Origin: Synechococcus sp. PCC 6312
GTDB taxonomy: Bacteria; Cyanobacteriota; Cyanobacteriia; Thermosynechococcales; Thermosynechococcaceae
Direction of reading: 5' to 3'
Length of the DNA stretch: 64,000 nt
Assembly: GCF_000316685.1 (NCBI RefSeq)
Contig: NC_019680.1
Span: 1,551,501 to 1,615,500, forward strand
The notes beneath the pieces were generated by a model. The model worked only from the letters and a program-made list of their open reading frames with translations, did not search any database and was not told where the DNA came from. The position numbers and the translations under genes are program-made. Position 1 is the stretch's first letter; every line of letters starts with the position of its first letter. This document shows positions 20,077 to 27,820 of the stretch, piece after piece.

Positions 20077-21441
20077 CTACAATGCTCCGGCCGCGGTTCG
20101 ATCCAATACGCCTCCCAAGTGGGTCGTAATATTCATCGCCTGTAGCCGCGGTGTTCCCCCCTCAAGCGGATAGTCAATCACACTCACCGCCCCATTCCCC
20201 TGCTTGAACTGCCAAAACTCCTCCGGCCCCAGGCCGGCCACATGACAGAGAATCACCTTATTAATCGCATCATGGGCCACGACTAACCCGACAATGGGCT
20301 GACTGTAATCCGAATTATTTTTAGCAGTTTCGATAATCTTGTCCCAGGCCTGGATCGCCCGATCCCAGACTTGTTGGAGATTTTCACCCGCGGGCATTTG
20401 GACTTGATGGGGAACCGTCCGCCAGCGTTCAATTTCACCGGGATATTCCGCTTCGACTTCTGGCTCTAACTTTCCTTCCCAGGCCCCGTGGCTAATTTCG
20501 GCCAGTTCTGGTTCTAAGCCCAATTCAATCTGGGGATGAAACTGTAAAATTGCTTCGGCCGTGGCTTTGGGACGCAAGAGCGGGCTGGTAATCGCAAATT
20601 GGAATGGAACATCTTGGAGAAATTGAGCCACTTGTTGACCTTGTTCTTGGCCCGTCGCATTGAGCGGCACATCAATTTGCCCTTGAAACCGGCCCTGACG
20701 ATTCCAATCGGTTTCTCCATGCCGCACCAGCAAGAGGCGTAAGGTTTTCTCTTTAAAGCGCGGGGTCGGAAACGGATCGCCGAGATGACTGGTGATATTA
20801 AAACTTTCCAGTTGGGCGGCTTCACCCCTGGCCCCAGGGAAATTCAAGACATTAATCGCACAGTTGGCCTGTTGCAGGCGGATATAGCCTTCTAAGCCCA
20901 TGCCCAAGGCAGTACAAATTAAAGCGCGGTTAATGCCACTGTGACCCACTAATAAAATCGTTTGCTCTGGGTGTTTCTCTAAGATAAATTGCCAAAAGGC
21001 CTGGGCCTTGACAAATAAATCCCGCAATGGATAAACCGTTTTAGTACCCTCGGCGGTTTCGTACTCCATCTGCAAATCTTGGGGACTGCTATGCCAATGC
21101 TGATAGGCTTCCGGGTATTTTTCCTTGACTTCCTCGAACTTCAGCGTTTCCCAGGCCGGCAAGAAAATCTCTTTGAGTAAATCAGTCTTTTCCGGGGCTT
21201 TCACGTCTAATTGATCGGAAATTTCTAATTGATCGGAAATTTCTAAGGCGGTTTCATAGGCCCGGCGCAAGGGACTGCTATAGAAGTGGTCAAATTCAAT
21301 TCCGATCAAGGCCTGGCCCACCTGCTTGGCTCCAGCAATCCCGCGCTCCGTCAACGTGGACGCGTCTCCATGCCCTTGTACCCGGCCTTGGACATTAAAT
21401 GTACTTTCGCCGTGCCGAACAATGATTACTTTTGTTGCCAA
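20077..21441 (-). CDS. Two-domain histidine phosphatase (phosphoglycerate-mutase-like)
   Basis: Two tandem histidine-phosphatase domains. The first has VIIVRHGESTFN at the N-terminus and GHSGINRAL; the second has LLLVRHGETDWNRQGRFQGQ from about residue 227 and VVAHDAINKVIL. Both catalytic Arg-His-Gly triads are intact. I start it at TTG 21441 (product MATKVIIVRHGEST, 454 residues), because GGGAGG lies eight bases upstream; the ATG at 21483 would add 14 unconserved residues. Substrates may be sugar phosphates or cobalamin intermediates and cannot be told from sequence. A perfect 18-bp tandem duplication adds LEISDQ twice in domain 1. The dihydroorotase-like gene follows with no gap. Confidence 0.88.
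   Translation of the reverse strand: MATKVIIVRHGESTFNVQGRVQGHGDASTLTERGIAGAKQVGQALIGIEFDHFYSSPLRRAYETALEISDQLEISDQLDVKAPEKTDLLKEIFLPAWETLKFEEVKEKYPEAYQHWHSSPQDLQMEYETAEGTKTVYPLRDLFVKAQAFWQFILEKHPEQTILLVGHSGINRALICTALGMGLEGYIRLQQANCAINVLNFPGARGEAAQLESFNITSHLGDPFPTPRFKEKTLRLLLVRHGETDWNRQGRFQGQIDVPLNATGQEQGQQVAQFLQDVPFQFAITSPLLRPKATAEAILQFHPQIELGLEPELAEISHGAWEGKLEPEVEAEYPGEIERWRTVPHQVQMPAGENLQQVWDRAIQAWDKIIETAKNNSDYSQPIVGLVVAHDAINKVILCHVAGLGPEEFWQFKQGNGAVSVIDYPLEGGTPRLQAMNITTHLGGVLDRTAAGAL
21206..21241. repeat. Perfect 18-bp tandem duplication inside the histidine phosphatase gene
   Basis: Two identical 18-bp copies (21206-21223 and 21224-21241) encode LEISDQ-LEISDQ in frame. The insertion is in a helix-rich region away from the catalytic motifs and should be tolerated. 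Confidence 0.9.
21272..21319 (-). repeat. Parent copy of a 48-nt segment repeated at 22240-22287
   Basis: This segment lies inside the phosphatase gene (QALIGIEFDHFYSSP). A second copy at 22240-22287 matches at roughly 80 percent of positions, in the same orientation. Confidence 0.85.
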
Positions 21442-21601
21442 GCCACTAACCTCCCAAATCAGAACCCTGGAGCCACAATCCAAACCCCCGCAATTTTACC
21501 GTGATTCCTTAGACTTGGCGCAAAATCCCCATTTCACCGTAGTCTCATCTATCGTTGAAATAAGCCATATTGCATCGGACAAAATTCATCGGGGATGGCT
21601 C

Positions 21602-21898
21602 ATGGGCAAATTTGAGGTTCTCACTCCCCTAAACTTTACAGTTCGGACTTCTGCACAGTATTGGGAAAAGCTGATTGTCAAACATCCTGACATTGCTGAT
21701 TTTGAACTAGAAATTCAACAAGCACTGGCCAGACCTGATCAAATTCGATGCAGTAGTAGCGATCCCAATGTGCTGTTATTTTACCTTGTCCTCAAAGAAA
21801 GACGCTGGGTTGTTGCAGTTGCCCGCCGCTTAAATGGTGATGGATTTCTAATTACGGCTTACCAAACGGATGCAATCAAAGAAGGAGAAATTTTGTGA
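21602..21898 (+). CDS. Small putative BECR/RelE-like nuclease, toxin-like partner of a DUF2283 protein
   Basis: A 98-residue protein from ATG 21602 (product MGKFEVLTPLNFTVRTSAQY), with a GGGGATGG Shine-Dalgarno-like stretch upstream; the frame is open further upstream but overlaps the phosphatase gene. The C-terminal half (VLLFYLVLKERRWVVAVARR, then GFLITAYQTDAIKEGE) follows the strand pattern of small BECR-fold/DUF4258-type nucleases, which commonly pair with DUF2283 proteins. No catalytic residue can be assigned with confidence. Its stop overlaps the next start (GTGA at 21895), so the two genes are coupled. The pair looks like a toxin-antitoxin-type module; this is inferred from arrangement and pattern only. 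Confidence 0.55.
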   Translation: MGKFEVLTPLNFTVRTSAQYWEKLIVKHPDIADFELEIQQALARPDQIRCSSSDPNVLLFYLVLKERRWVVAVARRLNGDGFLITAYQTDAIKEGEIL

Positions 21899-22194
21899 CA
21901 CGAGTAAAAATTTATTATGAACCCGAAATGGAATTACTCACTGTTTTTTGGCAACCACCCTCTAAAAATCAAATTGCCACAGAACTCGGGGATGGTGTGA
22001 TTTTAATCAAGGATCAAACGACTGGGGAACCGATTGGCATAGAACTTTTATCCTACCGACCTAGTGATGATCGCTTCGGTGCTGTCAGTGTTGAGTTGCC
22101 CACGGGATGGGAGATAAGCCCCAACTCCAGCAATACCCCATCCTATCCGTCTGACTCACAAACAAAAGATGAAGATACAACTCCAAGACGGTAA
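21895..22194 (+). CDS. DUF2283 domain protein
   Basis: A 99-residue protein from GTG 21895 with GAAGGAGAAA just upstream. It opens TRVKIYYEPEMELLTVFW, then ELGDGVILIKDQTTGEPIGI and ELLSYRP, the compact beta pattern of DUF2283. The C-terminal 25 residues are Ser/Pro/Thr-rich and probably disordered. DUF2283 proteins usually sit next to a small nuclease-like partner, as here, and are suspected antitoxins. The four-base overlap with the upstream gene ensures joint translation. Confidence 0.75.
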   Translation: MTRVKIYYEPEMELLTVFWQPPSKNQIATELGDGVILIKDQTTGEPIGIELLSYRPSDDRFGAVSVELPTGWEISPNSSNTPSYPSDSQTKDEDTTPRR

Positions 22195-22239
22195 TAGGAG
22201 CCAGGATGAAGGTTGAATTTTTCCTTAGCTCAGCTAAGA

Positions 22240-22287
22240 GGACTGCTGTAAAACTGGTCAAACTCAGTCCCGATTAAGGCTTGGCCC
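22240..22287 (-). pseudogene. Fragment of a second histidine phosphatase gene
   Basis: Read on the minus strand this encodes GQALIGTEFDQFYSSPL and then a stop, matching GQALIGIEFDHFYSSPLRR of the intact gene at 21319-21272. About nine of 48 bases differ, and most of the differences are synonymous. The rest of the 22195-22405 gap shows nothing else. Confidence 0.75.
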
Positions 22288-22405
22288 TGGAAAATTCTGA
22301 CTGGAGACCTCCCCAAGGCCTTGCCAAATTCTCAGCGAATAGATTTGTTACTTTTCTTAGGAATTGCTAGATTAAAATTATAAAACTTTAGGATTCTTAA
22401 TACTT

Positions 22406-22939
22406 ATGAATATTTCGCAACAAATTGGCCGTTGGTCAGTCGCACTCCTGCAAACCCGGTTTACCCCCAGCTACGGTTCCCAGGCCGGTTGGACTATTTT
22501 ACGGATCGTGGCGGGCCTGGTGATGATTCACAATGGCCTGGATAAGCTGGCCGATATTGACAGTTTTTCAGCCGCCTATGTCGAGGTGATTGGTTTACCC
22601 TTTCCAATTTTCTTTAGCTATGTTGCCGCCTTTACAGAACTGCTTGCTGCTCCATTATTAGCCCTGGGATTTTTAGCCCGACCAGCGGCCCTGGGATTAT
22701 TCAGCACAATGCTGGTGGCCATGTATCACCATGTCCTAGTGGCTGGCTTCAGTATTCCCTACCTGGAACTTTCCATGCTCTACGCGGCTGTGTTCCTTTT
22801 CTTCCTGCTCAATGGGGCCGGTTTGTTTTCTGTTGACGCGTTTTTGGCTGGGAAGTTCAGTAGCTTTATGGCCGGACAATCCCAGGATGTGCCTCAATCC
22901 GAACCTGTGGCCTTAGTCGAACAAAGCCGGACGATGTAA
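22406..22939 (+). CDS. DoxX-family membrane protein
   Basis: A 177-residue protein with four hydrophobic helices. The DoxX signature spans the first helix (ILRIVAGLVMIHNGLDKLAD) and the second (FSYVAAFTELLAAPLLALGF), with ARPAALGLFSTMLVAMYHH after. DoxX proteins are small membrane proteins linked to quinone- or redox-related processes; the biochemical role of the cyanobacterial members is not settled. The last 30 residues are soluble and variable. It appears to be a single-gene unit. Confidence 0.88.
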   Translation: MNISQQIGRWSVALLQTRFTPSYGSQAGWTILRIVAGLVMIHNGLDKLADIDSFSAAYVEVIGLPFPIFFSYVAAFTELLAAPLLALGFLARPAALGLFSTMLVAMYHHVLVAGFSIPYLELSMLYAAVFLFFLLNGAGLFSVDAFLAGKFSSFMAGQSQDVPQSEPVALVEQSRTM

Positions 22940-24184: not shown

Positions 24185-27100
24185 TTAGAAATTACGATTG
24201 TCAAGCTGCGCTTCTGTTTCCGCAATACTGAGCAGAGTTTTCAGGACAGAATCCGGGTTCAAGCTAATCGAGTCAATCCCTTGTTCGACTAAGAATTGAG
24301 CAAACTCAGGATAGTCACTTGGGGCCTGGCCACAGATACCAATTTTGCGCTGATGTTTCTTAGCGGTTTGAATGGCCTGGGCCACCATCCGCAGCACGGC
24401 ATCATTGCGCTCATCAAAGAGGTGAGCAACTAACCCAGAATCCCGATCCAGGCCCAGCGTTAGCTGAGTCAAATCGTTAGAGCCAATGGAGAAGCCATCA
24501 AAGACTTGCGAGAACTGATCTGCCAAGACAACATTACTGGGTAACTCGCACATGACATAGACTTCCAGGCCATTTTCACCCCGGTTTAAGCCATGTTTTG
24601 CCATCTCCTCTAAAACCCGTTGCCCCTCGGCGGGTGTCCGACAGAAGGGAATCATCAGGATGACGTTGGTTAGACCCATTTCGTCCCGTACCCGTTTCAT
24701 GGCCTGGCATTCGAGGGCAAAACCCGCCGCGTATAGAGGGTCATAATAGCGAGACGCACCCCGCCAGCCAATCATCGGGTTTTCCTCTTGCGGTTCAAAC
24801 TGTCGCCCACCAAGCAAGTTGGCATATTCGTTGCTCTTGAAGTCGGACATCCGCACCACCACAGGTTTGGGGTAAAAGGCCGCCGCAATCGTGCCAATGC
24901 CGTGAGCTAGCTTATCCACAAAGAAGTCCGGTTTATGGGGATACTGGGCCGTCAATGCGGCAATTTCGGCTTTTACCTGGTAGTCTTCCAACTGTTCAAA
25001 ATGCAATAGGGCTAAGGGATGGGCCTGGATGTGATTGGCAATAATAAACTCTAACCGGGCTAAACCCACGCCATCATTGGGAATGGCAGCCAAACCAAAG
25101 GCTTCTTCCGGATTACCGACATTCATCAAAATTTGAGTCCGGGTTCGGGGCAGATTTTTTAGGGCCACCTCATCAATTAAGAAGTTGAGGAGTCCTGCAT
25201 AGACTTTGCCCATTTCCCCTTCCGCACAGGAGATCGTCACCGCTTGTCCGGTTTGTAATTTAGTCGTTGCATCCCCACAGCCGACAATGGCCGGAATTCC
25301 CATTTCCCGAGCAATGATCGCAGCATGGCAGTTACAAACCAGTACCGGAGTGTATTTCTCGGTAAAGACAACGTAATTGTGATGATCTGCGACTGTAATG
25401 TTAAACACTTCGGCCGGTTGTAAATTCTCCACTTGCACAACCCGTTGCATCCGAATATCACCTTGCCGCAGAGACTCAAATTCGTCCATCTGTTCTAGGA
25501 GTTGCTCGGAAATTAAATAGTTCTGATCCCGGCGCAATTTAACTTGGCCCATAGCTGTTTCATCAAACAGTTGACGAGCTGCAAAAAAGCGAGTTTGAAT
25601 CGTGCGGGCAGTTACTTCTCCTTTGACCCGTTGGGTATAGCTGAGAATTTCCGGCAGCTTTTCAACAATCTGGACATTATAAATTTGGCGATTCTGGGTG
25701 ACTTGAGGAACAGTATTAATCTTCATGCAGGCAACTATGATCGCTTGGAGAAGATTTTCCTCAGAGGCATAGATATTGATCCGATTATTGGCATAACAGC
25801 CGTCACCGTCAATCACACCGGCCAAAAACTGATAGGCCACCTCTGGAGAACTCTGGAGCAGCATCGGAACAATATTTTCTTCCAGTTCTTTTACCTGATA
25901 GGCAATGGATTTGGAATACAGACGATAAGCCGTGGCCTGGCCCGTGACTGTTTCGCCCCGAATCATGCCGGTGGATGCTTTTTTCTCATAGGGCGTGAAA
26001 GACTTCCCAAAGAGTTTCTCGGCTTTAGCTTGCATCGTGGTAATAAACGCAGCTTTTTCGGGAACATCTTTCTGGATGAATTGAACTTCCCCGTGAGTCC
26101 GAGTGGTATAGATTGAACCATCCGTAATAATGCCGCCTAGGAAGTAGGCTAAATCCGCCGCTTGCTCAGAGTGTTCGGCTAACTGGGGAATCGTCTGGGC
26201 CACCACCACCATTTCTTGATTGGCCAGCATTTCTTGGATTTCGGTCTTAACGAATTCACCATTGCGTAGGTTGATCATTTTGTGATCTGGAGTCAACCGC
26301 AAGGTATTGTGGGTCATTTTGCCAGTTTGCGAGACACTCACCCCGATCACCTGGTTTGGCCGCTTCATGGTGTCAATAATCGGCTTCCACTCGATCCCTT
26401 GGGTTTGCGGATTAAAGGAGAGTGTTAAGAGTCCATCACTGCCCCGGTCATAGACTTGGCTGAGGCTCATAAACCCTTGATTGGTTAAAATCTTGGTGTC
26501 GCCTGTAAAGCATGTCCGGCCCCCCTGATTAGTAACAATCGCGCTGGCTTTTTTCATGATTGGTTCCCAGTCTGGATCCGTGCGGTTGGTGACTAACACT
26601 TCCCCGGCCTGGAACTCATTGATCTGGCGGACATCCATAATCACCCGCGCTTGACCTTGGCCAATCATTTCCCCCACAGCCCGCCCGTGGACTAAGACTT
26701 CTCCGGTTTCTTGGAGTTTGTAGGAGCGCAAGACATTGGTGGCTTTTTGGGATTGGACGGTTTCGGGCCGGGCCTGGACAATAAAAAGTTCGCCTGTATT
26801 GCCATCCTTCGCCCATTCAATGTCCATGGGAGTATAGCTGCCCCGGAGTTGGGAATAGTGATCCTCAATCGCACAGGCCCAGTGACCGAGTTGGAGAATT
26901 TCATCATCACTCAGAGCAAATCGGGCCCGGTCTTCAGGGCAAACTGAGACATTTTTGGTTAACTTGGAGCCACCCAGGTCATAGACCATTTTGATTTCTT
27001 TACTGCCGAGGCGTTTTTCCAAGATCGGTCGATAGCCTGTTTTGAGGGTGGGTTTGAAGACCAAATATTCATCGGGGTTGACGGCCCCTTGGACGACATT

Positions 27101-27820
27101 TTCACCCAGGCCATAGGCTGCCGTAATCAAGGCTGCATCCTTAAAGCCCGTTTCCGTGTCAATGGAAAACATTACCCCTGAGGAAGCTAAATCGGAGCGC
27201 ACCATTTTTTGCACACCCACAGACAAGGCCACATCAAGGTGATCAAAGCCTTTAATTTGCCGATAGGAAATGGCTCGATCCGTAAAAATGGAAGCAAAGC
27301 AACTGTGACAGGCCTTGAGAACTCCGGTGAGACCATGGACATTTAAGTAGGTTTCCTGTTGTCCGGCAAAGCTGGCATCGGGTAAATCTTCGGCGGTGGC
27401 ACTCGATCGCACAGCAACATCTGTATCTGGCCCATAGCGTTGACACATTTCGCCATAGGCCTGGGTAATCGCGGTGTGCAGAGATGTTGGGAAAGGTGTT
27501 TCGAGAATTAAGGATCGGAGTTCTTGGCCAATTTGTCGCAGTTGGGGGACATTTTCTACATCTAAAGCGGACAAAAGGGCGCGCAGTTTCGGCTCCAGGC
27601 CTCCCTCCAGAATAAAAGTACGATAAGCATAAGCAGTAGTTGCAAAGCCATCGGGAACATTAATCCCCTGTGGGGTGAGTTGTTGGAGCATTTCCCCTAA
27701 GGAGGCATTTTTTCCACCCACTAAAGGCAAGTCTGATAAACAAAGACGGTTAAGGGGCAAGACCAAGGCCTGGGATGGATCACTGAGAAACTTTTGTGCT
27801 TGGGCAGGAGTAGCAAACAT
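24185..27820 (-). CDS. ppsA: Phosphoenolpyruvate synthase precursor with in-frame intein
   Basis: A 1211-residue precursor; removing the intein (residues 437-830) leaves 817, the normal size for PpsA. The enzyme makes phosphoenolpyruvate from pyruvate and ATP through a phosphohistidine. The N-terminal ATP-grasp domain includes LVGGKNASLGEML, AVRSSATAEDLPDASFAGQQ and the later IEWAKDG. The swivelling domain reads TNQGGRT-[intein]-CHAAIIAREMGIPAIVG, with the catalytic His directly after the splice junction. The C-terminal barrel ends with FSIGSNDLTQLTLGLDRDSG and GICGQAPSDYPEF. Activity therefore depends on splicing. An AT-rich upstream gap of more than 240 bp probably holds its promoter. Confidence 0.96.
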   Translation of the reverse strand: MFATPAQAQKFLSDPSQALVLPLNRLCLSDLPLVGGKNASLGEMLQQLTPQGINVPDGFATTAYAYRTFILEGGLEPKLRALLSALDVENVPQLRQIGQELRSLILETPFPTSLHTAITQAYGEMCQRYGPDTDVAVRSSATAEDLPDASFAGQQETYLNVHGLTGVLKACHSCFASIFTDRAISYRQIKGFDHLDVALSVGVQKMVRSDLASSGVMFSIDTETGFKDAALITAAYGLGENVVQGAVNPDEYLVFKPTLKTGYRPILEKRLGSKEIKMVYDLGGSKLTKNVSVCPEDRARFALSDDEILQLGHWACAIEDHYSQLRGSYTPMDIEWAKDGNTGELFIVQARPETVQSQKATNVLRSYKLQETGEVLVHGRAVGEMIGQGQARVIMDVRQINEFQAGEVLVTNRTDPDWEPIMKKASAIVTNQGGRTCFTGDTKILTNQGFMSLSQVYDRGSDGLLTLSFNPQTQGIEWKPIIDTMKRPNQVIGVSVSQTGKMTHNTLRLTPDHKMINLRNGEFVKTEIQEMLANQEMVVVAQTIPQLAEHSEQAADLAYFLGGIITDGSIYTTRTHGEVQFIQKDVPEKAAFITTMQAKAEKLFGKSFTPYEKKASTGMIRGETVTGQATAYRLYSKSIAYQVKELEENIVPMLLQSSPEVAYQFLAGVIDGDGCYANNRINIYASEENLLQAIIVACMKINTVPQVTQNRQIYNVQIVEKLPEILSYTQRVKGEVTARTIQTRFFAARQLFDETAMGQVKLRRDQNYLISEQLLEQMDEFESLRQGDIRMQRVVQVENLQPAEVFNITVADHHNYVVFTEKYTPVLVCNCHAAIIAREMGIPAIVGCGDATTKLQTGQAVTISCAEGEMGKVYAGLLNFLIDEVALKNLPRTRTQILMNVGNPEEAFGLAAIPNDGVGLARLEFIIANHIQAHPLALLHFEQLEDYQVKAEIAALTAQYPHKPDFFVDKLAHGIGTIAAAFYPKPVVVRMSDFKSNEYANLLGGRQFEPQEENPMIGWRGASRYYDPLYAAGFALECQAMKRVRDEMGLTNVILMIPFCRTPAEGQRVLEEMAKHGLNRGENGLEVYVMCELPSNVVLADQFSQVFDGFSIGSNDLTQLTLGLDRDSGLVAHLFDERNDAVLRMVAQAIQTAKKHQRKIGICGQAPSDYPEFAQFLVEQGIDSISLNPDSVLKTLLSIAETEAQLDNRNF
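25331..26512 (-). mobile_element. PpsA intein with LAGLIDADG homing endonuclease
   Basis: A 394-residue intein. The N-terminal junction is T|CFTGDTKILT (Cys1, codon 26510-26512). Block B has LRLTPDHKM, with the Thr-x-x-His that activates the first peptide bond. The two LAGLIDADG dodecapeptides are LAYFLGGIITDGS and YQFLAGVIDGDGC, so an intact endonuclease is likely. Block F reads VFNITVADHHNYVVF. The C-terminal junction is TPVLVCN|CHAA. The terminal Asn and the +1 Cys are normal, but the penultimate residue is Cys where most inteins have His. The insertion is one residue before the catalytic phosphohistidine of PpsA. Confidence 0.95.

Follow-up and report, generated by a model that had tools for sequence, protein, structure and literature searches.

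A pair of small overlapping genes, encoding a DUF4258-like and a DUF2283-like protein, probably constitutes a minimal mobile toxin-antitoxin (TA) cassette in Synechococcus sp. PCC 6312, and the phosphatase fragment lying beyond the pair would be the surviving arm of a long duplication that arose with its acquisition. The window, i.e., the whole stretch of 64,000 nucleotides analyzed here, comes from a genome of 3.72 Mb (G000). The cassette would be ~0.5 kb long and carry no recombinase of its own. Its arrival upstream of a two-domain histidine phosphatase gene would have duplicated a long stretch of the phosphatase 5' region in direct orientation on either side of the pair, with one copy (arm A) within the intact gene and a truncated copy (arm B) past the pair; most of arm B would later have been deleted, so that 50-68 nt remain. 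Recombination via homology with the neighboring gene on at least one side would be the likely route, for instance integration of a circular donor piece (a phosphatase allele segment plus the pair) by a single crossover, or an insertion accompanied by a long target duplication of the kind reported for restriction-modification (R-M) genes. Once present, such arms could recombine with each other and thereby excise or swap the pair. The arms in the window probably represent two alleles, at least one of them from a close relative.

The phosphatase repeat and its surroundings

The cores of the two arms (Table 1) align in codon register without gaps, with 40 of 51 nt identical (78%). Translated from the minus strand, they read GQALIGIEFDHFYSSPL in arm A and GQALIGTEFDQFYSSPL in arm B; 15 of the 17 residues are the same, and nine of the 11 nucleotide differences fall at third codon positions. 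A sequence-only reading had reported a 48-nt repeat of the phosphatase gene in the same orientation, at about 80% identity and with mostly silent differences; both points hold, while its start at position 21272 trims a few nucleotides from the match. Chance as the origin of the repeat is ruled out by 1000 dinucleotide shuffles (mean score 11.1, maximum 17), against a best alignment score of 34 for the arms. The best ungapped extension spans 68 columns (approximately the full arms of Table 1) at 75% identity, and 12 of 17 differences in this longer comparison are at third codon positions. Toward the end of this alignment an in-frame stop interrupts the fragment (SPLS*AKE vs. SPLRRAYE), and arm B is therefore not a working gene. 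An exact 18-nt tandem duplication, EISDQLEISDQL, is also present inside the phosphatase gene close to arm A (21206-21241, minus strand).

Arm B lies 25-40 nt past the stop of the DUF2283-like gene; its start, at +25 nt from that stop, gives a spacing comparable to that at most positive loci elsewhere (see below). Arm A ends 282 nt from the gene pair, a distance exceeded at almost no other positive locus. If the duplication once reached the pair, ~280 nt of arm B would have been lost in a second event, a deletion. Both the missing ~280 nt and the need to assume this event count against the cassette explanation. The spacer between arm B and the DoxX gene gave a best score of only 10 against the phosphatase 5' end and upstream region, equaled in 63 of 300 shuffles.

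Table 1. Features of the locus, numbered from the first letter of the window.
Feature	Position	Strand	Remarks
Two-domain histidine phosphatase gene P	20077-21441	-	Source of the repeat; PF00300, two domains, E 5.9e-104
Arm A	21252-21319	-	Repeated segment inside the intact phosphatase gene; best core 21268-21318
Conserved cassette extent	21591-22098 (end approximate)	+	From DNA alignments to L128, L130-L135
DUF4258-like protein, 98 aa	21602-21898	+	Putative toxin; weak PF14076 match
DUF2283-like protein, 99 aa	21895-22194	+	Putative antitoxin; weak PF10049 match
Arm B	22221-22288	-	Diverged fragment, probably from another phosphatase allele; best core 22236-22286
Spacer, arm B to DoxX	22289-22405		No residual phosphatase similarity
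DoxX-family membrane protein gene	22406-22939	+	Far neighbor; PF07681, E 8.3e-17

Read from the sequence, the phosphatase gene likely starts at the TTG at 21441, behind a GGAGG; the reading frame is open to 21483. Orthologues occur in nearly all of the 29 family genomes, and a pyrC-like gene adjoins the phosphatase in nearly all orthologue-bearing family genomes examined. The gene pair stands beside the phosphatase in this genome only, among the family loci examined, and no other case of a DoxX gene beside it was found among the family genomes examined. The stop of the putative toxin gene and the start of the putative antitoxin gene overlap in GTGA. The conserved part of the putative antitoxin ends near residue 69, and residues 70-99 have no counterpart in relatives. 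Alignments to the DNA of L128 and L130-L135 reveal no conserved ends outside the two genes; the shared DNA stops at the genes. Further along the window, a phosphoenolpyruvate synthase-like gene (24185-27820, minus strand, 1211 aa) contains, within its reading frame, an insert bearing an intein splicing domain, which matches PF14890 just below the cut-off and is located at the PEP-utilizing mobile domain.

Family and spread of the gene pair

As a correction to the sequence-only reading, the two proteins in the window match their DUF families only weakly and stay below the family cut-offs. The DUF4258-like protein matches PF14076 with E 0.17 and 12.6 bits (gathering score 25), and the DUF2283-like protein matches PF10049 with E 0.07 and 13.7 bits (gathering score 23). 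PF14076 is matched by 16 of 34 aligned relatives of the putative toxin (E ≤ 0.1, best 1.9e-4) and PF10049 by 16 of 25 aligned relatives of the putative antitoxin (best 2.3e-10). DUF4258 is counted among the RelE/ParE (BECR-fold) toxins, with an unknown target (PMC11980606), and by family assignment the first protein is a putative toxin of the RelE/BECR superfamily. What links the first gene to these DUF4258 toxins is that PF14076 matches are seen in part of its relatives; the protein in the window differs in falling below the family cut-off and in having a DUF2283-like partner, placed after the toxin gene. Searches of the PHROGs and PADLOC libraries and a PDB profile search with the two proteins returned nothing convincing, and no mention of DUF2283 was found in the part of the literature covered.

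As in type II TA systems, the two genes are small, overlapping, kept together, and horizontally mobile, and the proteins would act as toxin and antitoxin. Both genes are adjacent in most genomes carrying them. Among 116 genomes of relatives, 37 carry a homologue of the putative toxin; when the threshold was tightened, homologues were counted in 83 of the class's 390 genomes. The nearest homologue (83% identical) belongs to another family (f25), and members of PCC 6312's own family reach 79% and lower. The pair spreads horizontally: the toxin tree ignores host taxonomy, with 15 host-family changes required compared with 15.6 for shuffled labels. A plasmid search located the pair only on Synechocystis plasmids, from which the phosphatase arm is absent; on the Synechocystis plasmid examined, the pair is found beside a DNA methyltransferase.

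Direct repeats, empty sites, and the origin of the fragment

The bracketing of the pair by direct repeats recurs in other cyanobacteria. In a census of 61 oriented loci with flanks, where a locus counted as positive if direct repeats scoring 20 or more lay no farther than 600 nt from the pair, 26 loci were positive, compared with 21 of 560 control intervals from the same loci. Inverted repeats surround the pair at one of the 61 loci, and the conserved phosphatase and DoxX genes gave no such bracketing at 35 loci. The 26 positives are not all independent, as several share one R-M gene, and they amount to ~18 independent sites. About half of the pair loci show no repeat; these, together with the partly non-independent targets, count against the cassette explanation. 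The repeated piece belongs to the local neighbor gene and differs from site to site: Eco57I-type R-M enzymes (L205, L210), a DNA methylase (L261), ATP synthase gamma (atpG; L220), an ABC permease (L226), a subunit of NADH:quinone oxidoreductase type (L163), and a NACHT-GUN4 protein (L239), among others. The arms at L163 are only 29 nt long and uninformative on an empty site. L212 is doubtful as a clean positive, its repeat consisting of two 61%-identical ORFs that are probably ordinary paralogues.

At L210, L260, L225, and L226, identical stretches alternate with diverged ones in mosaic arms of the kind that recombination between alleles would leave. The lack of a recombinase and of conserved ends, the very unequal arm lengths, and these mosaic arms together suggest recombination that uses the sequence of the neighbor. 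At some R-M sites (e.g., L129, L168) the duplicated tail contains a GGAGGTGAT-like sequence just ahead of an ATG, so that a start signal could be retained both for the pair and for the gene that follows. In the more distant toxin clade (L261, L144, L259), the pair is preceded by a DNA methylase gene copy cut down to its 5' part and followed by a longer copy, an order that is the reverse of that at the R-M tail sites.

Relatives also provide empty sites. The pair lies behind atpG in G147. In G110, a genome of the same genus, this site has no pair and the atpG DNA is uninterrupted; positions 1419-1587 (168 bp) of that DNA are found both before and after the 613-bp insert of G147. Pairwise differences among the two atpG arms and the empty site are nearly equal in number (22, 20, and 23). 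The far arm (arm B of this site) has accumulated unconstrained changes, several of them nonsynonymous, and the copy adjoining the gene is intact; the site looks like an old insertion whose second arm is decaying. In G182 the tail of the ABC permease gene is repeated over 66 nt, and relatives have no pair at this position. There, the sequence of G206 runs through the repeat into the DNA downstream of the G182 arm B, bar a small deletion, and the erosion of that arm is proposed to be of the same kind as that proposed for the window. Taken by itself, the window locus would be an eroded member of this pattern.

The substitutions separating the window arms point to import. In simulations with one constrained and one neutral copy, at least nine of 11 changes fell at third positions with P ~0.002-0.005, vs. 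P ~0.2-0.5 for two constrained alleles; over the longer stretch P was 0.005 for a local neutral copy and 0.45 for two constrained alleles, each figure reflecting 17 to 22 codons picked by similarity. Because a purely local, neutrally decaying copy fits this pattern badly, the arms would be two separately evolved coding alleles, and import is favored, though not proven. The initial proposal that the fragment was imported with the module survives in part. The fragment is tied to the pair, given that repeats recur around the pair in many unrelated genomes, and both copies have diverged as if coding. The imported piece need not be the fragment, however: arm B could have come from elsewhere, but so could today's 5' half of the phosphatase gene, and the substitution pattern does not say which. 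The phosphatases of the relatives covered, family genomes of other genera, all match arm B worse than the local gene does, and a DNA search of relatives with 22200-22405 yielded chance-level matches only.

The second arms at the atpG and ABC permease sites look like target duplications that later decayed, and a local duplication is therefore a real alternative in principle. At the phosphatase, ~350 bp of the resident 5' region would have been copied, and copy B would have decayed neutrally and undergone deletion, with no foreign phosphatase DNA involved. The atpG case, with its unconstrained arm B and intact gene-side copy, looks like such an event, and for R-M units, insertion can be accompanied by target duplications that vary in length around the order of 100 bp (PMC3874152). 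The excess of third-position differences reported above (9/11, or 12/17 in the longer stretch) speaks against it at the P values given, but from a stretch too short and too much selected for similarity to be conclusive; on balance a purely local insertion is rather unlikely. The coding-type divergence could also be explained if an old tandem duplicate or paralogue of the phosphatase gene had left the fragment behind independently of the pair's arrival, and other histidine phosphatases, very distant ones, do occur in the genome. However, no family genome has a second copy close enough in sequence, and the fragment sits directly behind the pair, where neighbor repeats recur at other loci, which makes this origin improbable. 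It is still harder to believe that the fragment is a selected antisense element, whereby read-through RNA from the pair, complementary to phosphatase codons 56-76, would regulate the phosphatase. No terminator-like site separates the pair from the fragment, and the predicted duplex for read-through over 22195-22290 (plus strand) reaches -97 kcal/mol, compared with -54 ± 6 for shuffles. However, strong pairing follows from the similarity alone, there is no Rfam match, and the arms of many unrelated genes at other loci obviate any regulatory purpose.

Related systems and other TA pairs

The proposed cassette acquisition most resembles the insertion of R-M genes with long target duplication (Nobusato et al., 2000, as cited in PMC3874152 and PMC3031569). 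Both involve a small addiction-type unit without a transposase, empty sites in relatives (here at atpG and, in substance, at the ABC permease), and direct target repeats of variable length, of the order of 100 bp. Long direct target repeats, the hallmark of such duplication, flank the pair here as well (51-68 nt in the window, and at the 26 positive loci of the census). The cassette differs in being a two-gene TA-like pair of ~0.5 kb that often has R-M genes as neighbors but is also found next to core genes (atpG), and the window differs further in that one arm is eroded and the arms resemble two alleles. A second precedent adjoins the orthocaspase gene MaOC1 of Microcystis aeruginosa PCC 7806, where two 152-bp direct repeats enclose a TA pair (PMC7935541). 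This is likewise a type II pair between identical direct repeats beside an unrelated neighbor gene in a cyanobacterium, but it is of RelE/ParE type, concerns a single locus, and has an internal inverted repeat within the repeats. Like integron and transposon cassettes, the pair is a small unit between repeats, in places within tandem arrays with one common repeat, as in the genus g34 (see below); unlike them, it has no integrase or transposase and no conserved ends, and its repeats are pieces of the local target. Nor does the insert have the makeup of a transposon or insertion sequence, as it holds only two small genes and no terminal inverted repeats.

Long target duplications for R-M genes and one repeat-fenced TA pair were thus already known; their union across cyanobacterial TA pairs was not found in the part of the literature covered. 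The observations bear on the question of how TA pairs move from genome to genome outside recognizable mobile elements. With one small pair, duplicated target DNA at many unrelated sites, and empty sites, the insertion route becomes directly testable, and direct repeats of a neighbor offer a simple signature for spotting such cassettes.

A tentative extension, somewhat short of an even bet, is that, in cyanobacteria, TA pairs from several families with no relation to one another belong to a single class of ~0.5-kb cassettes that lack a recombinase and move by recombination through duplicated pieces of neighbor genes, with the duplication keeping both neighbors working and different TA pairs being exchanged at the same target (NACHT-GUN4, g34). 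In a RelE-like family, repeats were seen at 12 of 30 loci, a count with no matched control of its own. The site before the NACHT-GUN4 gene is occupied by the present pair in G129 (L239) and G078 (L229), and by a RelE-like pair in G100 (L296). In genus g34, a ~60-bp repeat with a GCGATCGC site lies between consecutive small TA cassettes, ~500-690 bp apart (L299, L300, L308, L311, L312); the cassettes comprise this pair, RelE-like pairs, and DUF5615/DUF433-like pairs, the latter two named by the appearance of their sequences.
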